From positions 1-34,358 of the forward strand of contig JAGQYO010000035.1 in the NCBI GenBank assembly GCA_020435995.1: a DNA stretch of 34,358 nucleotides, in the 5' to 3' direction. The notes beneath the pieces were generated by a model. That model was not told the origin of the DNA. It was given only the letters and a program-made list of their open reading frames with translations, and made no database searches. Origin of the DNA: Flavobacteriales bacterium (GTDB lineage: Bacteria > Bacteroidota > Bacteroidia > Flavobacteriales_G > Salibacteraceae). Both the position numbers and the translations under genes were made by a program. Position 1 is the stretch's first letter. Each line of letters starts with the position of its first letter. Positions 10,793-20,646 of this stretch are shown here, piece after piece.

Positions 10793-11662
10793 ATGAAATT
10801 ACTTATATCATTTACTTGGATACTCGGTATTATTTTTCATTCGGTATCCTATGGCACTGTGGTCAACAAGACTTTGGTGCTGAATAAGGGCATTATTTAT
10901 ACAGTTGATTCAAATCAGGCTCCTTATTACTGTTTCAATTCTGATACGATTTTTCGTCAAACGAACGAACGGATTTTGGCAACAACGGGCGACAGCTTGG
11001 TTATTAGTGTACTCAACAATACATTGGATACTCAAAGCTTTGTGATTAAGGATTATCTAATTAATGAATTGATCTATCCGAATTCCACCAAACAAGTTTC
11101 GTTGGTGCCATCCAAAGCTGGAATTCATGTTTATTCATCAGGTGAAAATGGGAAAGAGATAAACCATTGGGGAGCTTCAGGAATGTTACTGGTTACAGAT
11201 GCAAATGATGCGAACAAAGCAACATATTACTGGAATATAAAGGAATTTGAGTTGGAGAAAGTTAAGCAACTCGATTCTGGAAAAACCGTGGACTGGAATA
11301 CATATTATCCAGATTACTTTACCGTAAATGGACTTGGCAAGGATCAATTGGTTGGAGATGTGGTTACCAATCCTACTGGCTTGGTTGGGGACTCTATCTT
11401 GATTGCAATTACAAATACAGGCAAAGCACTTCATCCGATTCACTTTCACGGATATCACTGTATAGCAAAGGAAGTAAACTCTAAAACGATACAAAAAGGA
11501 AGTAATAAAGACACATTTTCTATAAAATCAGGGGATGCCGTTTTATTGCTATTAATTCCCGATAAAATAGGGGTGTATCCAGTTCACGACCACAACCTCA
11601 TAGCGGTAGCAGGTGGGGGCAAGTATCCTAATGGCATATTCATGATAATAAATATTAAGTAA
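10793..11662 (+). CDS. two-domain cupredoxin protein lacking the type 1 Cys
   Basis: A 289-residue exported protein with a signal peptide and two cupredoxin-like domains. The second domain carries H214-PI-H217-F-H219-G-Y-H222 and V-H265-D-H267-N, which match multicopper oxidase motifs 3 and 4. The HCH Cys is Asp266 and the downstream His is missing, so a type 1 electron-entry copper cannot form, while trinuclear-type His ligands remain. The first domain shows no His cluster. There is no T9SS domain. Its stop codon overlaps the next start (TAATG), so it is translated together with the full-site cupredoxin that follows, and the two may act as one complex. A redox-inactive copper carrier is the main alternative. 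Confidence 0.8.
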   Translation: MKLLISFTWILGIIFHSVSYGTVVNKTLVLNKGIIYTVDSNQAPYYCFNSDTIFRQTNERILATTGDSLVISVLNNTLDTQSFVIKDYLINELIYPNSTKQVSLVPSKAGIHVYSSGENGKEINHWGASGMLLVTDANDANKATYYWNIKEFELEKVKQLDSGKTVDWNTYYPDYFTVNGLGKDQLVGDVVTNPTGLVGDSILIAITNTGKALHPIHFHGYHCIAKEVNSKTIQKGSNKDTFSIKSGDAVLLLLIPDKIGVYPVHDHNLIAVAGGGKYPNGIFMIINIK

Positions 11663-12855
11663 TGAAGTATTCAATTCTATTTTTTTTAGTCTCTTATATG
11701 GGGCTTTCAGGGTGGGCGCAGGCCGACACCTCTTTCAATATTTGGATGTGGACCACAGGAAAACATTATCTACACGATGGACAAACACTCAAGAACTATG
11801 GTTTTACTTTGGGAATTGGCACGCCAACTATCCCTGGCCCAGTACTTCGAGTGAAACAAGGTCAAAAAGTGCAATTGGACGTAAGGAACCAGAGCCAAGG
11901 AGCACCTCATACAATACATTTACATGGGTTAGATGCTGATCAAAACAATGATGGCGTTCCTCTTACAAGTTGGGATATAAAACATAAAGAAACCAAGGCT
12001 TACGAGTTTGTGGCTGAGCATCCGGGCACCTATCTTTATCACTGTCACGTGGCCTCTGTTATTCATGTTCAATTGGGTATGTACGGTTCGATTATCGTAG
12101 AGCCTACGGCTAATGAAGCTGCACCGGGTTATTTTTATGGTCGAGACTTTAACTTATTGATATCAGAGGCGGACAAATCGTGGTTTGATAACAAGCCCAT
12201 TCACTCCACTGGTGATTCTGTACACGCTTTGTTTTCTATACCGGCTTATGAGCCAGATTATTTTTTTGTAAATGGTCAGGGGCAGCAGCAGATCGACTCG
12301 TTGATCATGCGGCCAGATGAGAACGTGTTTCTCAGGTTATCCAACGTTGGTTATTTTGAAAATCTTGTCAAATTTCCTAGCAGTTTATCTGTTCGATTAA
12401 TTTCATCAGATGGAAGGCCGCTTCCGAATAAAACTATCATTGACAGTTTGTATATAGGAGCTGGGGAGCGTTATGGGGTTATGCTTTCGCCTATTGGAAA
12501 AAGTACAGGATCAATCGAAATACAGTATTTACACATGTTTACCGGAAATCGAGTACAGTCTGAGTTTGTACCTTATGGATGGGATGAAAGCTTGGGAATT
12601 GAGACCACTTCAATATATGATGGCTTTCAAGTTTATCCCAATCCGGTAATTGACAAAGTTCATATAAGTTATAAGACTGATGGCCCTTATCAAGTCAATA
12701 TTATTGATCTTGCGGGAAAGATACTCAACTCAGATTTCAGCATTGAAAAAAATGAAATAATTATGGATTTGAGCTCCCATAAACCAGGGGTATATTCTTT
12801 ACAGATTATGCAAAATGATAAGGTAGTTTATACCAATTCAATTATAAAGATGTAG
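11662..12855 (+). CDS. multicopper oxidase-like cupredoxin protein with T9SS sorting domain
   Basis: A 397-residue exported protein: signal peptide (to GWAQ), an N-terminal cupredoxin domain, a second cupredoxin domain without His ligands (about 190-305), and a C-terminal type A T9SS sorting domain (about 320-397, VYPNPVIDK). Domain 1 has H83-TI-H86-L-H88-G and H127-C128-H129, followed by H135 and M140, a complete type 1 site plus trinuclear-type His residues. The C-to-H spacing is longer than in laccases and shorter than in copper nitrite reductase. A three-domain oxidase would need a second set of trinuclear ligands; these are present in the overlapping upstream gene. Oxidation of Cu(I) or another reductant at the surface is a plausible role. 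Last gene of the operon. Confidence 0.85.
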   Translation: MKYSILFFLVSYMGLSGWAQADTSFNIWMWTTGKHYLHDGQTLKNYGFTLGIGTPTIPGPVLRVKQGQKVQLDVRNQSQGAPHTIHLHGLDADQNNDGVPLTSWDIKHKETKAYEFVAEHPGTYLYHCHVASVIHVQLGMYGSIIVEPTANEAAPGYFYGRDFNLLISEADKSWFDNKPIHSTGDSVHALFSIPAYEPDYFFVNGQGQQQIDSLIMRPDENVFLRLSNVGYFENLVKFPSSLSVRLISSDGRPLPNKTIIDSLYIGAGERYGVMLSPIGKSTGSIEIQYLHMFTGNRVQSEFVPYGWDESLGIETTSIYDGFQVYPNPVIDKVHISYKTDGPYQVNIIDLAGKILNSDFSIEKNEIIMDLSSHKPGVYSLQIMQNDKVVYTNSIIKM

Positions 12856-12951
12856 TAGACATGGAGAGTCTATAAGGAACTAGGCTGTTGTTTGTTTCAG
12901 ATCATTTATCAATCAACTGTTTTAAGCACTAGATTCTTCAGGAGCCTAGCC

Positions 12952-12959
12952 TATTTTTG
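12952..12959 (+). promoter_or_regulatory. candidate -7 element of the queE promoter
   Basis: TATTTTTG matches TAnnTTTG exactly. No convincing -33 TTTG is seen at the right distance. A start about seven bases downstream would leave almost no leader before ATG 12967. The same bases overlap the right arm of an inverted repeat (CTAGGCT 12880-12886, AGCCTAG 12943-12949), so this stretch could instead end the copper operon. Confidence 0.35.
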
Positions 12960-12966
12960 CGCTTGT

Positions 12967-13593
12967 ATGAAATTGGCTTCTACTTCGTTTTTAGAGTTTT
13001 CTTATCCAGTAATGGAACATTTCTATACCATTCAGGGAGAAGGAGCGCACGCAGGAAAGGCCGCGTATTTTATTAGAATAGGCGGGTGCAACGTGGGCTG
13101 TCCTTGGTGTGATGTAAAAGAAAGCTGGGAAGCAGAAGACCATCCAAATACTTCGGTTGCGCAGATTTTAGAATGGCTGCAAGATTCGGATGCCACAAAT
13201 GTGGTTATCACGGGAGGCGAACCCACGATGTACGATTTAAACCCAATTTGTACTGTACTAAAAAAAGCAGGGTATCAACTGTGGTTGGAGACATCAGGGG
13301 CATATCCCATTTCGGGAATGTGGGATTGGATTGTACTCTCGCCAAAAAGAAGAAAAATGCCGCTCGACGAAAATTACCCATTAGCGGATGAATTGAAGCA
13401 AGTGATTGTTAGGCTTCCTGATTTTGATTTGGCCCTTGCTGAATCTGAAAAAATGAACGAGCACGCAAGGCTATTTATGCAGCCAGAGTGGAGTAGGGAG
13501 GAAGAAGTGTTACCCGCCATTATCAACTTTGTAAAGAAAAACCCGAGATGGCAAATTAGTCTTCAAACCCATAAATACATGCAGATTCCATAA
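12967..13593 (+). CDS. queE: 7-carboxy-7-deazaguanine synthase (QueE)
   Basis: A radical SAM enzyme of 208 residues that contracts 6-carboxytetrahydropterin to 7-carboxy-7-deazaguanine, a step in queuosine biosynthesis. The FeS motif is C41-NVG-C45-PW-C48, typical for Bacteroidota QueE, preceded by FYTIQGEG and followed by the SAM-binding TGGEP. The C-terminus SLQTHKYMQIP is characteristic. The ATG at 12967 is chosen over an upstream TTG because it gives the usual short lead-in before MEHFYTIQGEG. Other queuosine genes are not in the window. It is 111 bases after the copper operon and convergent with the next gene. Confidence 0.95.
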   Translation: MKLASTSFLEFSYPVMEHFYTIQGEGAHAGKAAYFIRIGGCNVGCPWCDVKESWEAEDHPNTSVAQILEWLQDSDATNVVITGGEPTMYDLNPICTVLKKAGYQLWLETSGAYPISGMWDWIVLSPKRRKMPLDENYPLADELKQVIVRLPDFDLALAESEKMNEHARLFMQPEWSREEEVLPAIINFVKKNPRWQISLQTHKYMQIP

Positions 13594-13687: not shown

Positions 13688-14467
13688 TTACTTCTTTGAG
13701 CTTAAGTCTATTTTATGTTTCACTTGAAGCCAAAAAACATTCAAATACAAATAATCGGTGGCCACTCTCGTGCTTGAAATGAGGGTATTCCACGTAAATG
13801 AAATATCTAAGTTGTCGCTGTACCTGTAAGTTGGACTAATAAGGAACCTATTTTGATCAAACACCTGATTCACCGTTTGCTTACCCGCGTTTATAAAAAT
13901 TTCGTTGCCCAAGTTTAGTAAAACCGCTTTCCCTAGCTTTTCATTGGAAATGTTGAACAAAGGAATGCTCGTGGTAAACCCATATCTAAATCTGAAATTA
14001 TAGCTGTTTGGAGTTTGTATTTTGCCATTATAGGGATTGAAAAAACGCTCCTCAATTCTGAATCTATGGTTAAATCGCACCCTGCCAGAAGCGTGTTTTA
14101 ATACCATATCCTGATATATTCTGAATTCCACCCTAACAACTTGTTCTGACAAATAGGCTCCCGAATGGGCAATGCCCGCAGCAATGTTTATGTTTGGATT
14201 GATTGCATAGCCAGCTCCAGTTCGAATCTGGTATTGGGAGTAGTTGCTAAAACTATTTTTCCATCGAAAGCCGCCGTCAGTGAGCAACGACCATTTCTGA
14301 TTAAACTTTAATTGGTTATAGTATTGAACCCACTGCTGATTTCCTGAATGAAAGGTGTTTTTTTGAGCCAACAAGGGTGTGGAACCCACGAAAATGTAAC
14401 AAATGAGGAATGCGAATACGCGACCATACTGGAAATTGAAGTACTTATTTTTAAGGGCAAAAAACAC
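13688..14467 (-). CDS. DUF2490 family outer-membrane beta-barrel protein
   Basis: A 259-residue protein with a signal peptide (to PLLAQ) and repeated amphipathic strands ending in aromatic residues, as in outer-membrane barrels. The DUF2490 pattern is visible in QQWVQYYNQLKFNQKW near the start, RFNHRFRIEERF in the middle and the final Phe-Trp-rich strand. The function of the family is unknown. The gene lies 14 bases after the N-formylglutamate amidohydrolase-like gene on the same strand, so it may be co-transcribed with the amidoligase cassette and act as an outlet or receptor, although it could equally be an unrelated downstream gene. Confidence 0.75.
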   Translation of the reverse strand: MFFALKNKYFNFQYGRVFAFLICYIFVGSTPLLAQKNTFHSGNQQWVQYYNQLKFNQKWSLLTDGGFRWKNSFSNYSQYQIRTGAGYAINPNINIAAGIAHSGAYLSEQVVRVEFRIYQDMVLKHASGRVRFNHRFRIEERFFNPYNGKIQTPNSYNFRFRYGFTTSIPLFNISNEKLGKAVLLNLGNEIFINAGKQTVNQVFDQNRFLISPTYRYSDNLDISFTWNTLISSTRVATDYLYLNVFWLQVKHKIDLSSKK

Positions 14468-14481
14468 AGTTTCAAATTACT

Positions 14482-15162
14482 TCAAATTTCTGAGGTAGAA
14501 ACGAGGTGCAAAATAGAATTGAATACTTGGGTGTTCAATTTTTTAGTAATCTTATCATTTTTTACTTCCAATTCGATACCGCTATACCCAATTGGAAATT
14601 GCTTGCGCAAATATGTGGTAAACCCATCGGCGGTACCCAAATAAGGATAGTTAAATCGGACATGCAATTGTGGATTTTCTTTTTGTATTTCAATTTTAAA
14701 TTGTTTGGCAAAAACCTTTTCTGAACTCCGCTTGGGGTCGTACAACAAGCCTATGTGGGCATTGCGGATTTTGCCATTGAGCACGGGCGTAAAACTGTGT
14801 ACTGATAAATGAAGCACCTCGCCATGTTGCTTGATGAGTTGGGCGATTTCCATCTCTACCTTGTTTCGATAAGGCAGATAATATGAATTAACCAAGATTT
14901 CCTTTTTCTCCTTAGTTAGTGGCTTAGTGAATTCCGAAAACAATTTTGGGTGATGTAACGAACGATTAAGTTCGATGAACAACCGAGAATAGGGATAATG
15001 AAAATGTTTTTTTGATAAAGGAATAAGCTCTTTAAAAAGACTTTCGGCACCCAGATCATAGGCCCTATGAGTTTGTAAAACCCCTCGATCAGGGGCAAAT
15101 AAATAGGCAAACTCTTCAGGGATTTTGTTTCCGAAATGCTCGCAGCTTAAAAGCAGAATCAT
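14482..15162 (-). CDS. N-formylglutamate amidohydrolase family hydrolase
   Basis: A 226-residue cytoplasmic metallohydrolase of the N-formylglutamate amidohydrolase fold. Motifs are SCEHFGN at the start, the ELNRS segment, LSVHSFTP (metal-binding His) and IELEVKND near the end. In histidine breakdown this fold cleaves formylglutamate, but no histidine-utilisation gene is nearby. Members are also known by comparative genomics in operons with ATP-grasp and GCS2 ligases, where they are predicted to cleave or trim amide bonds. Its ATG overlaps the stop of the GCS2 gene by 4 bases, which argues for this second role. Confidence 0.85.
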   Translation of the reverse strand: MILLLSCEHFGNKIPEEFAYLFAPDRGVLQTHRAYDLGAESLFKELIPLSKKHFHYPYSRLFIELNRSLHHPKLFSEFTKPLTKEKKEILVNSYYLPYRNKVEMEIAQLIKQHGEVLHLSVHSFTPVLNGKIRNAHIGLLYDPKRSSEKVFAKQFKIEIQKENPQLHVRFNYPYLGTADGFTTYLRKQFPIGYSGIELEVKNDKITKKLNTQVFNSILHLVSTSEI

Positions 15163-16382
15163 GCGCCAAACATCTGGTTTCTTTTCAGACTTTCAATCAA
15201 CTGCACATTCATTTCGTCGATTCGTTCCAAGCTTGGATTTGGCCCACAATACTGAAGCATTCGTGTAGCTAACGTTCCACGAGTTAATAAAGCTTCAATC
15301 ATATCAATCTGATTACATTCTAATCCTCTGTGATGTTTATCCAACAAATGAATCCAGACTTCTTTTACCGAGCATGATTTTTTCTGAATACCTAACGCCT
15401 GAAGCAACTCCACATCTTCTACTACCGCATTTTCTCCATCTTTAATTACCTTCAAAAAGACTTGAGAAAGTTTTTGTTCTGAAAATTGTTTGATGACTTC
15501 AAGTTCTTTTGCAGGCAACGAGCACAAATGTTTCAATACCGAAACAATTAACTTGAGAATGGCTATGTCCATAGACGGACTTTCTTGAATGTCAATGATC
15601 CGAATTTCGATGGCTCCGCGGTCAAATCTGGCAATAGCCCCTCGGCTGTTTAAAAAATGGTGATCTAAAATGCCTTCCGTATCATAAGGTTTGATGGCTA
15701 GGTTAATGGGTTCAAAAATTCGTTTGTAATAATCTTCCTTGGTGTAAACAGCCTCTGGGACAACGAGTCCAGCTATCACGGGAATTTTCGCTTGATTTTT
15801 TCGGTAGTATTCTAAGCGTGTATCTACGTATCCTGATACTTTTCCATCTAGGATAGGGGTGCTGGCCGAAAGCGCTGGAATGATGGGAAGTAGAATTCTA
15901 ATGGCTGCATGCAATTTGGCAAATTCCTCGTTTCCTGTAAAAGGTAAGTTGATGTGTGTACTCTGTAGGTTGCTCCACCCATGTCCTTTGCAATTAAAAA
16001 CTCGGTTGTATAAATTGTACACCTCATTGTGCTCGTGAGGCCAAATTTGGGTTTCGGTGAGTGGGTCGGCAGTTGGGTGAGCACCACCAGGCATCAGCAC
16101 AGCTTTGTGTTTTTCTAGAATGTTGTTTATCTCTAATACATTTTTGTGAAAATGCTCATCTAAGCCATTCAAACTTGGAGCTGGTCCATTGGTTTTTATT
16201 TCTAGCACGTGCGAAACAAGTTCATTGCTCCAGGCCACTTCTCCGTTTTCATAATCGGCAATAAAAGAGCCTGTTTTTTCTTTAAATATTAAATCGGCAA
16301 TCGATCTTATTTTTCGTGTGTTTTGGTCTACAATCATGTATTCCAATTCTACACCATACACGTCAAAAAGGTGATAACTCAT
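15159..16382 (-). CDS. GCS2-type carboxylate-amine ligase
   Basis: A 407-residue ATP-dependent ligase of the glutamate-cysteine ligase type 2 family (glutamine synthetase-like fold). The N-terminus has GVELEYMIVD (metal-binding Glu), then the middle PGGAHPTADP and WSNLQSTHINLPF (nucleotide and metal binding), and late RFDRGAIEIRIIDIQESP. These enzymes join the carboxylate of Glu or a similar acid to an amine; GCS2 outside glutathione operons usually has an unknown substrate. Its start overlaps the ATP-grasp gene by 4 bases and its end overlaps the amidohydrolase gene by 4 bases. Two different ligases in tandem suggest a product with at least two amide bonds. Confidence 0.9.
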   Translation of the reverse strand: MSYHLFDVYGVELEYMIVDQNTRKIRSIADLIFKEKTGSFIADYENGEVAWSNELVSHVLEIKTNGPAPSLNGLDEHFHKNVLEINNILEKHKAVLMPGGAHPTADPLTETQIWPHEHNEVYNLYNRVFNCKGHGWSNLQSTHINLPFTGNEEFAKLHAAIRILLPIIPALSASTPILDGKVSGYVDTRLEYYRKNQAKIPVIAGLVVPEAVYTKEDYYKRIFEPINLAIKPYDTEGILDHHFLNSRGAIARFDRGAIEIRIIDIQESPSMDIAILKLIVSVLKHLCSLPAKELEVIKQFSEQKLSQVFLKVIKDGENAVVEDVELLQALGIQKKSCSVKEVWIHLLDKHHRGLECNQIDMIEALLTRGTLATRMLQYCGPNPSLERIDEMNVQLIESLKRNQMFGA

Positions 16383-17842
16383 TTGTTCAATTGTTCTTGT
16401 ATTCTACGTTTTAAACTTGCTATTACCCAAGTGTAAATTTCATTTCCTGCTTCGAGGTCTTCCACTCCAGAATCGATATTCGGGTTGTCATTTATTTCAA
16501 TGATGACCACCTTGTCGCCTATTTCTTTAATATCAACACCGTAAAGTCCGTCGCCTATCAATGCCGTCGCTTTTAAAGCGGCTTCTACCACTTGTTTTGG
16601 AACTTCATGTAGCGGCAGTGTAGCAAAGTTGCCCGATATCTCTCCCTTCTTTTTGCTGTCCCAATTATAGATTTGCCAATGGTCTTTTGCCATAAAATAT
16701 TTACAGGCATATATCACCTTGTTTTCCAGTACTCCTATACGCCAATCGTAGTCAGAGGGCATCCATTCTTGGGCGATAACCAAGTCAGACTCTTGAAGCA
16801 GGCCAGCGATTTTTTCAGCGTAATCTTCTGCTGTTTTGGCTTTTAACACACCTTGAGAAAATGACGAATCGGGAAGCTTAAGCACACACGGGAGTCCAAG
16901 CTCTGCTATCACCTCATTTTTATTGTCTTGATGTACAATAATGGTCTTTGGTGTTTTGATTTTATTGAGCGAAAGCAATTCGGCCAAATAGACTTTGTTG
17001 GCACATTTTAGAATTGAATCTGGGTCGTCGATTACGGCCATACCTTCACTTTGCGCTCTTCGAGCAAATTTGTAAGTGTAGTGGTTTACCGAAGTTGTTT
17101 CGCGGATGAATAGCGCATCGAACTCCACCAGCCTCGAATAGTCATCCTTGGTAATAAATTCCACATACATATTGAGCTTTTCGGCTGCTTCTTGAAACTT
17201 TTGAAGTGCTTTTTTGTCCGAAGGTGGGGCCTTTTCATCATGATTTACCAGAATAGCCAAATCAAATTGATAGGGTGTTTCTTTTTGTGATTCGTACCTG
17301 GTTTTGGTAAAAAAGTCCTTAGCCGAGGCCCACACAAACTCACGGTGAATGTCTGGAATATCTTTAAATGGAATTGTTTTAACGCCCTGTATTACCCATT
17401 TTTTGCCATTGAATGCAAATTTTGCGCGCATAAATGGGGTTCTGAACAGACGGTGTAATTCACGGCTTAACTTATCATACTGCTTCGCCAGATTTTTGCC
17501 AAAATAGATACTCAAAACAAATTCTTTTGATTTGATGGACTTAAAATTCTTTTGAATCAAATCATCCAATTCGTCTGAAACGCTTTTTACAATTTCCGAG
17601 GCTTTTATGTCTTGGATATTCTTCACGTTTGGAATCGGTTTGTGACCTCGCGCCTCAGCCATAAGCGAAACGTAATAGCCTTTTGACTGATAGCTATAAT
17701 CATTGGCCATGTTAAATACTCGTGCGTTTTTTTCGCTTGCCCACGTAGAATTTATGAGGTAGTCTTTGGATGAAATTACCACACATTCAGGGATGTCAAT
17801 ATCCCACATGGCAGGGTTTCCCACTACAAGAATCTTTTTCAT
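16379..17842 (-). CDS. RimK-type ATP-grasp ligase with RLAN N-terminal domain
   Basis: A 487-residue protein. Residues 1 to about 200 match the RLAN domain that precedes RimK-like ligases; the C-terminal half is ATP-grasp, with DDPDSILKCANKVY (pre-ATP-grasp junction), the VLKLPDSSFSQGV loop, and VVIIEINDNPN (Mg-binding Glu/Asn). RimK-like ligases add amino acids, often Glu, to a peptide or small molecule by way of an acyl phosphate. The acceptor here is not known. The gene is fused by 4-base overlaps to the peptidase gene upstream and the GCS2 gene downstream, and this gene order matches a predicted amidoligase operon type described by comparative genomics. Confidence 0.9.
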   Translation of the reverse strand: MKKILVVGNPAMWDIDIPECVVISSKDYLINSTWASEKNARVFNMANDYSYQSKGYYVSLMAEARGHKPIPNVKNIQDIKASEIVKSVSDELDDLIQKNFKSIKSKEFVLSIYFGKNLAKQYDKLSRELHRLFRTPFMRAKFAFNGKKWVIQGVKTIPFKDIPDIHREFVWASAKDFFTKTRYESQKETPYQFDLAILVNHDEKAPPSDKKALQKFQEAAEKLNMYVEFITKDDYSRLVEFDALFIRETTSVNHYTYKFARRAQSEGMAVIDDPDSILKCANKVYLAELLSLNKIKTPKTIIVHQDNKNEVIAELGLPCVLKLPDSSFSQGVLKAKTAEDYAEKIAGLLQESDLVIAQEWMPSDYDWRIGVLENKVIYACKYFMAKDHWQIYNWDSKKKGEISGNFATLPLHEVPKQVVEAALKATALIGDGLYGVDIKEIGDKVVIIEINDNPNIDSGVEDLEAGNEIYTWVIASLKRRIQEQLNK

Positions 17843-18555
17843 TTAGGTGTAATAATTAACAAGTTAGCATCATAAGTTATCATGCCAAGCAAAATAGATG
17901 TAATTAATTGAGTCGGCTCAACTTCATAATAGTTATTGTCCCCAAGGGGATTGCCCTTGTAAGGATCCGCCACCAAAATATTGCCTGTATCGGTTTGTCC
18001 CATCAGTACTACAAAGTGGCCCATAGGCTCTCCCTTTAGGTCATCATATATCGATTGCCCTTTGCTGTTGGCATATTCTCGTTTCGATTGATAGAGGTAT
18101 GTGGCCGACAAGCCTGTAAGCACTGGCGTTTTGTTTTCGAAAAAGGAGTAGAGGAGCTGTGGAGTGAGGTTTTCTGTTTTTATTTCTCCACCATTTTTAA
18201 GAAACTCCATATAGGCATGAGCCACATCTTTGAATTTCTTTCCGGTTTTAAACGCAAGCTGTTCTTTTAGTTTTTTGCGAAGACCTCTCGAATCCAAGTT
18301 CATCCAAGTAGGGTCAAACATTTTAAGATTGAAGGTATAAATGGTGGCATTGAAATTTTTATTTAATGCGTTAATACCTAAAAATACGGCCAGTGTTCCA
18401 CCATTCTGCAGGTATTTTACCTCATTGATAACTTCGTCTAAAGACAGGTTTAATTGATGATAATTGTAAACCGCGTGAAGGCTTGTAGGGCCGCAGGTGT
18501 TATCGTCGGGCTGCGTCATCATACGCACGCCTAAATTTTTATGTGGTATACTCAA
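17839..18555 (-). CDS. C39-like cysteine peptidase
   Basis: A 238-residue papain-fold peptidase of the C39-like group and first gene of the cassette. The catalytic Cys21 is in DDNTCGPTS, His180 in GHFVVLMGQ and Asp197 in VADPYKG, giving the full triad in the expected order. There is no signal peptide and no ABC transporter domain, so it is a stand-alone cytoplasmic enzyme rather than a bacteriocin exporter. In this context it could release a peptide precursor, act as an amide hydrolase or transferase on the ligase product, or recycle it. Its stop overlaps the ATP-grasp start by 4 bases. Confidence 0.85.
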   Translation of the reverse strand: MSIPHKNLGVRMMTQPDDNTCGPTSLHAVYNYHQLNLSLDEVINEVKYLQNGGTLAVFLGINALNKNFNATIYTFNLKMFDPTWMNLDSRGLRKKLKEQLAFKTGKKFKDVAHAYMEFLKNGGEIKTENLTPQLLYSFFENKTPVLTGLSATYLYQSKREYANSKGQSIYDDLKGEPMGHFVVLMGQTDTGNILVADPYKGNPLGDNNYYEVEPTQLITSILLGMITYDANLLIITPK

Positions 18556-18696: not shown

Positions 18697-20646
18697 CTAC
18701 TGCGCCTCGAGTTTTTCTATTTTTTCCCCTATTTTTTCCCACTCATTAAGTTTGCGATCGAGCGACGATTTGAGATTTGAGTGTTCAAAAAAGGCTTTTT
18801 TGGAGGCATCTTCATTTTCGTAGAACTCTGGATTGCTCATATTCGACTCCATCTTTGCGATTTGATCTTCTAATTCGGCAATCTTTTTTTCGCATTTACT
18901 CAAGTCATTTTTCAATTGCTTAAGCTCTTTATCTTGGTTCTTTCTGTTCTCAAAGTCTGCCTTTCCCGATGATGGTTTTTTCGTTGACTTTTCTTTTTCG
19001 GCTTTTTTATTCAGCTCGAATTCTCTGAAATGATCGAGTTTGTATTTGTTCAAAAACTCATCAATATCGCCTAGGTGTTCTTTAAGCCCGTCGGCAGTAA
19101 ATTCTAAGGTTTTAGAAGTTAACCCAGTGAGAAAATCCCTATCGTGAGATACCACGATTAAGGTTCCATCATATTGGATAAGGGCGTTTTTCAATACTTC
19201 TTTTGCGGCAATATCCAAGTGGTTAGTTGGCTCATCTAAAATAAGCAGGTTGTTCTCCTTAAGAAGCATTTTTGCCAATGCCAACCTCGATTTTTCACCT
19301 CCCGAGAGCACCTTCACTTTTTTGTCTACGTCTTCCTCTCCAAATAGAAATGCGCCTAAAAGACCTCTAATTCTGTGGTTTTTACTCCAATCTCCAACCG
19401 CTTCATTTTCGATGCTTTGCAGCACGGTGTCGTTCTCGTTCAGCGTTTTTTCCTGAATCTGGGCGTAGTAACCCATTTCTACATTGTGCCCCAGAATAAT
19501 TTCCCCGTCGCAATCGGTTTCTTTGGTAATAATTCTTATTAAGGTGGATTTGCCCATTCCATTTTTTCCGACAAATGCAATTCTTTCTCCTCGAAGAATT
19601 TTTTCATTCACATCGCGCAGCACTTGCTTGTCGCCGTAGGCTTTTGACAGTCCTTTTGCTTCCACCACTAGCTGACCACTTCGGGGTGCTGGCGGGAATT
19701 TAAATTGAATACTGGCCGTTTCAAATTCATCTAGTTCTACGCGGTCCACTTTTTCAAGCAGTTTTATTTTGGATTGTACAGCCTTGGCTTTCGACGCTTT
19801 GGCCTTAAATCGGGTGATAAACTTCTCTTGTTGGTCGATGTACTTCTGTTGGTTTTTCATGGTGGCTATTTGGTTGTCATAGCGCTCTTGGCGTAGGGTT
19901 AAATATTTGGTGTATGGGGCGGGGTAGTCATATATTTTACCAAATACAATTTCAATGGTTCGGTTGGTAATGTTGTCCAAAAACCTTCTATCGTGCGACA
20001 CCATCATTATGGCACCTGGGTAACTCATAAAGTACTCTTCCAGCCACATAATGGATTCAATATCGAGGTGGTTGGTGGGCTCATCTAAAAGCAAAAGACT
20101 TGGCTGTGTTAAAAGAATTTTGGCCAACTCCACCCGCATTTGCCAACCCCCGCTAAAGCTCGAAAGTGGCATATCGAATTCATCTCGGGTAAAACCTAAA
20201 CCTTTCAGTATTTTTTCTGTTTTCTGCTCGATTTTATCGGCATCTAAATGATCCAGCCGTATGTGAATGTCGTTGAGCCGATCTATCATGTTGTGATAGC
20301 TCTCGCTTTCGTAGTCGGTGCGTATGGTTAGCTGCTCGCCAATATATTTTTCTTCTTCCTCTAATTTATTGATTTCGGCAAATACCGTTATCGTTTCGTT
20401 ATACACCGACATGGAGGGTGCGAAATGCATTTCTTGAGGAAGATAGCCAACTGTTTTGTCATTTGAAATATCGATGCTGCCAGAGCTGGGTTCTTGAAAT
20501 CCAGCAATAATTTTGAGCATGGTTGATTTTCCAGCTCCATTTTTTCCTACGAGACCAATTCTGTCTTTTGGTTGAATCATAAAAGAGATGTCCTTGAACA
20601 AATCTTTTCCTGAAACGAACATGGATATTTTAGATACTGAAAACAT
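18697..20646 (-). CDS. ABC-F family ATPase
   Basis: A 649-residue soluble protein with two ABC ATPase domains in tandem and no membrane segments: Walker A VGKNGAGKST and VGKNGMGKST, signatures SFSGGWQMR and LSGGEKSR, and Walker B DEPTNHLD twice. The interdomain linker (about 250-320) is charged and helical, as in ribosome-binding ABC-F proteins, and the C-terminus (about 540-649) is a Lys/Glu-rich coiled coil like that of Uup. ABC-F proteins act on the ribosome to rescue or tune translation; a few give antibiotic resistance, but nothing here points to that. It starts 3 bases after the glycosyltransferase stop, so the two are co-transcribed. Confidence 0.93.
   Translation of the reverse strand: MFSVSKISMFVSGKDLFKDISFMIQPKDRIGLVGKNGAGKSTMLKIIAGFQEPSSGSIDISNDKTVGYLPQEMHFAPSMSVYNETITVFAEINKLEEEEKYIGEQLTIRTDYESESYHNMIDRLNDIHIRLDHLDADKIEQKTEKILKGLGFTRDEFDMPLSSFSGGWQMRVELAKILLTQPSLLLLDEPTNHLDIESIMWLEEYFMSYPGAIMMVSHDRRFLDNITNRTIEIVFGKIYDYPAPYTKYLTLRQERYDNQIATMKNQQKYIDQQEKFITRFKAKASKAKAVQSKIKLLEKVDRVELDEFETASIQFKFPPAPRSGQLVVEAKGLSKAYGDKQVLRDVNEKILRGERIAFVGKNGMGKSTLIRIITKETDCDGEIILGHNVEMGYYAQIQEKTLNENDTVLQSIENEAVGDWSKNHRIRGLLGAFLFGEEDVDKKVKVLSGGEKSRLALAKMLLKENNLLILDEPTNHLDIAAKEVLKNALIQYDGTLIVVSHDRDFLTGLTSKTLEFTADGLKEHLGDIDEFLNKYKLDHFREFELNKKAEKEKSTKKPSSGKADFENRKNQDKELKQLKNDLSKCEKKIAELEDQIAKMESNMSNPEFYENEDASKKAFFEHSNLKSSLDRKLNEWEKIGEKIEKLEAQ

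Follow-up and report, generated by a model that had tools for sequence, protein, structure and literature searches.

Gene Content of the Locus

The window, that is, the whole stretch of 34,358 nucleotides analysed here, is part of a 3.76 Mb metagenome-type assembly from a Flavobacteriales-like member of the Bacteroidota. Positions 14482-18555 hold four minus-strand ORFs that encode, in this order, a C39-like (papain-fold) thiol hydrolase/transferase (17839-18555, 238 aa, Pfam C39_2), an RLAN-RimK ATP-grasp amide ligase (16379-17842, 487 aa, Pfam RLAN and RimK), a GCS2-family carboxylate-amine ligase of a distinct subfamily (15159-16382, 407 aa, Pfam GCS2) and an N-formylglutamate-amidohydrolase-like enzyme, FGase (14482-15162, 226 aa, Pfam FGase). 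The original prediction, made from the sequence alone, had described these genes as joined by exact 4-base overlaps, and the ORF coordinates bear this out on the minus strand at 17839-17842 (C39/RLAN-RimK), 16379-16382 (RLAN-RimK/GCS2) and 15159-15162 (GCS2/FGase). The arrangement is not due to chance: dozens of genomes from different phyla repeat the gene order, in many cases down to the overlaps.

The G+C content of the cassette (39.7%) is close to that of the window (39.4%), which led to rejection of a recent foreign island, and an RNA element was discarded since the sole RNA match within the window was a tRNA. A DUF2490 gene (13688-14467) follows the FGase gene on the same strand after a gap of 14 bases and could be co-transcribed with it; as a fifth member it was rejected, no homologue being found beside other cassettes. 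Elsewhere, the window encodes a short protein similar to multicopper oxidases that carries a secretion sorting domain (Por_Secre_tail) at its C-terminus (11662-12855), and a Pfam Radical_SAM protein (12892-13593), QueE-like by sequence reading, which probably starts at an ATG further downstream than the TTG given in the ORF list.

The RLAN-RimK Ligase

In the ligase, an RLAN domain (approximately residues 26-170; 156.5 bits, Pfam cut-off 25) is fused before a RimK-like ATP-grasp module (approximately residues 193-484; 40.2 bits, cut-off 21), an architecture that places the protein among the RLAN-RimK ligases. The scores remain far from the cut-offs for RimK proper (PRK10446, 31.8 versus 331; TIGR00768, 75.3 versus 143.4). 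In structure comparison the model of the ligase best matched LysX, ArgX and RimK (Z 26-28), with Ddl at Z 22-24; as for the RLAN fold, the full-length model gave mostly ATP-grasp matches. The ATP- and metal-binding residues K283, K322, D437, E449 and N451 are 99-100% conserved in 142 homologues.

The acceptor loop, which reads EFRSNLHRGG in Pseudomonas aeruginosa RimK, is replaced by MAKDHWQIYNW in the window ligase, and across 142 RLAN ligases of every type the HWQI motif is conserved at 99-100%. This invariance suggests that one amine or carboxylate substrate, unlike the glutamate acceptor of RimK, would be common to all versions of the enzyme, both those accompanied by GCS2 and those accompanied by a GNAT acetyltransferase (see below). 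Carriage of the cassette by phages was considered and rejected, the phage matches being limited to the ATP-grasp half.

The GCS2 Ligase and the FGase

The GCS2 ligase scored 91.2 bits (Pfam cut-off 21) and fell below every NCBIfam cut-off for YbdK/GshA (best, 50.8 versus 371; TIGR02050, 47.8 versus 176.4). Its ExE and E-R-D motifs align with those of YbdK in an otherwise distant alignment to the 1r8g structure, with catalytic residues E12, E14, E61, E259 and R261 intact. The FGase (78.5 bits, cut-off 28.9) likewise lies far under the HutG equivalog TIGR02017 (21.8 versus 278.75); its nearest solved structure is 2odf (Atu2144, E 2.6e-34), and residues E8, H9, H118 and H122 are preserved. Each of the two proteins is the only member of its family in the genome.

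Since GCS2, ATP-grasp and FGase proteins all score below the curated cut-offs, names such as YbdK, RimK or HutG should not be transferred to them, and the GCS2 ligase and the FGase are too distant from characterised enzymes for substrates to be assigned by homology. The expectation of intact catalytic residues was confirmed, these residues being near-invariant among the relatives of all four enzymes.

The C39-Like Enzyme

The first ORF of the cassette starts at a TTG (18555) or else at an internal ATG. Its product matched C39_2 with 38.1 bits (Pfam cut-off 24), and residues C21, H180 and D197 are invariant or almost so in 46 homologues. Pfam, alignment and an AlphaFold2 model (pLDDT 91.9) concur in the papain-like C39 fold with its Cys-His-Asp residues. 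In structure comparison the model matched, at tied Z scores of about 16-17, C39 peptidase domains, the pseudomurein endoisopeptidase PeiR and the primitive phytochelatin synthase Alr0975, whose structure is available in complex with glutathione. Because the phytochelatin synthase match ties with C39 leader peptidases, the modelled fold is silent on the chemistry and would suit a hydrolase as well as a transferase. At E 0.01 the cassette proteins gave no match to PF05023 (Phytochelatin), the similarity in fold (Z about 16) notwithstanding. The protein stands alone and in this differs from bacteriocin-leader peptidases, which are fused to an ABC exporter or share its operon and act on a double-glycine leader; no exporter or small peptide gene was found conserved near the cassettes, and the ABC-F gene at 18697 is not of the exporter type, judged by its domains.

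A homologous domain occurs in other RLAN loci. The profile of DUF3335, a domain found fused to GNAT acetyltransferases, aligns to the window C39 protein (hhalign probability, 96.8%) with the same Cys, His and Asp; DUF3335 is itself C39-like and homologous to the cassette enzyme. The domain has been placed in the papain-like superfamily, with its GNAT fusions noted and Iyer et al. 2009 cited (PMC10318531).

Conservation of the Cassette Across Genomes

A scan with one genome per species yielded 80 loci with related ligases, next to which GCS2 was encoded in 71, FGase in 56 and C39 in 45. Gene order was again C39, RLAN-RimK, GCS2, FGase, and the intergenic gaps were mostly near zero, with -4 as the commonest spacing. 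The hosts belong to Bacteroidota, Fibrobacterota, Ignavibacteriota, Desulfobulbaceae, Leptospiraceae and Legionella. In three rumen Fibrobacter, the FGase gene lies about 4.7 kb downstream. The four genes co-diverge, as judged from pairwise protein distances (Mantel r 0.67-0.89, against a maximum of at most 0.22 in 500 permutations), part of this correlation being the common descent of the genomes. The ligase tree mixes phyla, for example with Desulfobulbaceae inside Bacteroidota rows, which suggests that whole cassettes may have been transferred between hosts. Among the relatives of the window organism, the RLAN gene is patchy (8/60 genomes).

RLAN ligases were detected in about 11% of the sampled Bacteroidota (44/395 genomes), always as one gene per positive genome (1 of the 44 matches was sub-cut-off and in a broken frame), and in 19% of the sampled Pseudomonadota (56/299), where three genomes (G533, G537 and G621) have two RLAN genes each and the others a single copy. 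Two individual loci deserve a separate record. At L139 (G258:C1:2371000-2383000, in a single-contig genome that is 99% complete), frameshifts seem to affect the ORFs of both the RLAN ligase and GCS2, the latter being split into two overlapping frames, through either sequencing error or decay. L092 corresponds to a 9,073-base record of Legionella adelaidensis labelled as a plasmid (NZ_LR134436.1), with RimK-GCS2-FGase accompanied by fur, bamE, ratA/rnfH and dapF, neighbours that look chromosomal and perhaps indicate a mislabelled contig or an excised segment.

Both hydrolases are missing from some loci, and for this reason they are regarded as accessory, with the RLAN ligase and its amine-capping partner (GCS2 or GNAT) forming the core. 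For 13 tested loci without C39, from Flavobacteriaceae and kin, the rest of the genome had no C39 either, and the enzyme therefore is not essential; it was also missing genome-wide in most of the tested Fibrobacter whose locus is devoid of it. Replacement of the missing C39 by DUF3335 was rejected, this domain being absent from 24 genomes that included C39-less and GNAT-fusion ones.

Across the 80 loci, no additional gene was conserved beside the cassettes beyond genus level. A conserved small peptide gene, whose search near homologous cassettes had been proposed together with the original prediction, was not found either: no small ORF within 2 kb of the 80 cassettes was conserved beyond closely related genera, a search that diverged precursors could escape. 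A RiPP or graspetide precursor was thus rejected, given that small ORFs were conserved solely among Rufibacter-type relatives, where conservation reflects common descent of the DNA.

Exchange of GCS2 for an Acetyltransferase

In the sampled loci, the partner of an RLAN ligase is either GCS2 or a GNAT acetyltransferase, the latter fused to the ligase or encoded next to it, and never both. GCS2 adjoins 71 of the 74 unfused ligases, while the remaining 6 of the 80 loci encode longer GNAT-RLAN-RimK fusions (about 650 aa) that have no GCS2 nearby. The survey of 395 Bacteroidota genomes provided 12 further fusions, likewise without a neighbouring GCS2, so that overall a GNAT domain was present in 18/18 and a nearby GCS2 in 0/18. 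A whole-genome profile search for cassette-type GCS2 retrieved none in 15 GNAT-fusion genomes and recovered the GCS2-type positive controls (3/3).

In Pseudomonadota, 40 RLAN loci were examined with about 4 kb around each. A GNAT-DUF3335 gene was adjacent in 29, a GNAT without DUF3335 in 10 and neither in 1, meaning that GNAT was adjacent or fused in 39/40, and GCS2 or FGase were found within that distance in 0/40. Some of these GNAT genes are divergent, and the relation observed is therefore one of adjacency rather than co-transcription. Legionella is the GCS2-type exception within the phylum, and at two P. aeruginosa loci (L090 and L178) neither of the cap genes is close by. At L090, on plasmid pZYPA1927, a lone RLAN-RimK gene with no GCS2, GNAT or C39 in the vicinity adjoins genes for an aminotransferase, a gamma-glutamyltransferase and a glutamate/aspartate ABC transporter.

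The C39-like domain accompanies both kinds of ligase, whereas FGase occurs only with the GCS2 kind. On the final ligase tree, from which L139 was left out (its row covers only the last quarter of the gene), the GNAT label needs at least two changes, forced by well-supported branches; as a long branch leads to one of the two GNAT groups, the count of two is not beyond doubt.

Proposed Function and Alternatives

The reading favoured here, to which a probability of roughly one half is given, is that the cassette enzymes build and turn over a peptide-like metabolite that is small, soluble and N-capped, following a logic similar to that of glutathione synthesis. The substrates, the products, the order of the steps and the small-molecule nature of the product are what we infer as follows. 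The GCS2 ligase would activate a side-chain carboxylate with ATP, most likely the gamma-carboxylate of glutamate, and couple it to an amine on a building block X, producing gamma-Glu-X or a similar compound. The RLAN-RimK ligase would activate a carboxylate and add an amine Y, generating a glutathione-like tripeptide. In relatives devoid of GCS2, the GNAT acetyltransferase would provide the cap instead, yielding N-acetyl-X. The C39-like enzyme could cleave or transfer the ligase product via an acyl-enzyme, in the way that phytochelatin synthase acts on glutathione, and the FGase could hydrolyse the amide made by GCS2 or a by-product, the two hydrolases thereby trimming or recycling a small soluble peptide. 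By eye, the N-termini of C39 and FGase present no evident signal peptide, which makes a cytoplasmic product likely.

Of the unit of two ligases and two hydrolases initially envisaged, what stands is a real functional unit, as indicated by the intact residues and the co-divergence; the hydrolases turned out to be accessory, and the product is one that we infer. Similarly, of the two types of product contemplated, an amide-linked metabolite is retained as the probable one and a peptide tag is left without support, no conserved small peptide gene having emerged.

Tagging of a protein or peptide is an unlikely alternative. Here the RLAN domain would recognise a protein, the ATP-grasp and GCS2 enzymes would add amino acids to its C-terminus or a side chain, as RimK does on ribosomal protein S6, and C39 and FGase would remove the tag. 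The proximity of the ATP-grasp module to RimK, LysX and ArgX, which extend proteins or carrier proteins, is in line with this idea, as are the additional RLAN domain of about 150 residues, which could bind a protein, and the two hydrolases, which suit tag removal. However, no conserved gene for a tag or carrier was found near the cassettes, the invariant HWQI motif occupies the place of the RimK acceptor loop, and an acetyltransferase taking the place of GCS2 is more readily explained for a small molecule.

Somewhat less likely still is a low-molecular-weight thiol or metal-binding gamma-glutamyl peptide, meaning true glutathione or an analogue of phytochelatin, with C39 acting as the transpeptidase. 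The set of GCS2, ATP-grasp and papain-fold enzymes parallels the cyanobacterial set for glutathione and primitive phytochelatin synthase, and Alr0975 is among the closest folds to the C39 model. Against this, the Phytochelatin family is not matched, and gamma-glutamyl peptides are not expected from the GNAT version. The thiol role is moreover already filled: this genome carries the bacillithiol gene bshC, as do 61/61 Bacteroidota tested, with or without the RLAN gene, and so the product is probably not the main cellular thiol. Ordinary glutathione, an outcome recognised from the start as contrary to the prediction, was rejected, the GSH-S_ATP domain (PF02955) being absent from this genome and present in 9/14 controls.

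It is improbable that the product serves as an osmolyte or for storage, in the manner of N-acetylglutaminylglutamine-amide (NAGGN) or cyanophycin. The hosts include marine, soil and desiccation-prone bacteria, and the GNAT-ATP-grasp fusions call to mind the GNAT/ATP-grasp enzyme that reportedly takes part in NAGGN synthesis. Yet scanning of three GNAT-RLAN fusions reported no NAGGN model, no partner of the asparagine-synthase kind was noted, and rumen Fibrobacter are also among the hosts. Finally, it is very improbable that the four genes, although co-transcribed, act independently, for example in amide salvage alongside an unrelated ligase, as the absence of C39 or FGase from some lineages might suggest. 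The conserved gene order in different phyla, the co-divergence, the overlaps and the occurrence of FGase solely with GCS2 all favour the joint action foreseen in the original prediction.

If the preferred reading of an N-capped metabolite is extended beyond the window, RLAN ligases may, tentatively, define a widespread class of such peptides with an exchangeable cap, of gamma-glutamyl type (GCS2) in Bacteroidota, Fibrobacterota and relatives or acetyl (GNAT) in Pseudomonadota. Both versions would then have in common a thiol enzyme of the C39 type, acting in turnover or transfer, and the product would be distinct from glutathione and from any known thiol. The exchange narrows the search for the product, as both versions should yield related capped compounds that have the RLAN-built part in common. 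Common as these ligases are, the literature searched contained no paper assigning them a product, as originally stated, and no biochemical study of the cassette.

Comparison with Known Systems

Iyer et al. reportedly predicted, in 2009, the RLAN family together with its connections to GCS2, GNAT, C39-like peptidase and NFGAH. It thus appears that this class of cassettes was foreseen then and that the window adds a clear member; the counted exclusivity of GCS2 and GNAT, the ligase tree, the common C39-type domain and the altered acceptor loop come from the present analysis. Two later papers cite Iyer et al. 2009 (Mol Biosyst 5:1636; doi 10.1039/b917682a), one for the DUF3335-GNAT fusion (PMC10318531) and the other in connection with linked ATP-grasp, COOH-NH2 and GNAT ligases (PMC4431377).

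The cassette shares GCS2, ATP-grasp and papain-fold thiol enzymes with glutathione synthesis (GCS2-type GshA plus ATP-grasp GshB) taken together with Alr0975. It departs from that system in a GCS2 ligase far under the GshA models, in a second ligase of the RLAN-RimK rather than the GSH-S_ATP family, in a host that has bshC and in the addition of FGase. With RimK, LysX and ArgX, the cassette ligase has in common the fold and the ATP-site residues, and differs by its N-terminal RLAN domain, the HWQI loop and the GCS2 or GNAT partners. The BtrH/BtrJ system of butirosin synthesis combines an ATP-grasp ligase with a C39-related thiol acyltransferase. BtrH_N is C39-related (PMC10318531), and the cassette resembles this system in joining a ligase to a C39-related enzyme, but has no carrier protein or aminoglycoside genes. 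In the GNAT-DUF3335 and RLAN-RimK pairs of Pseudomonadota, both the RLAN ligase and the C39-like domain are homologous to those of the cassette, with GNAT in the place of GCS2 and without FGase.
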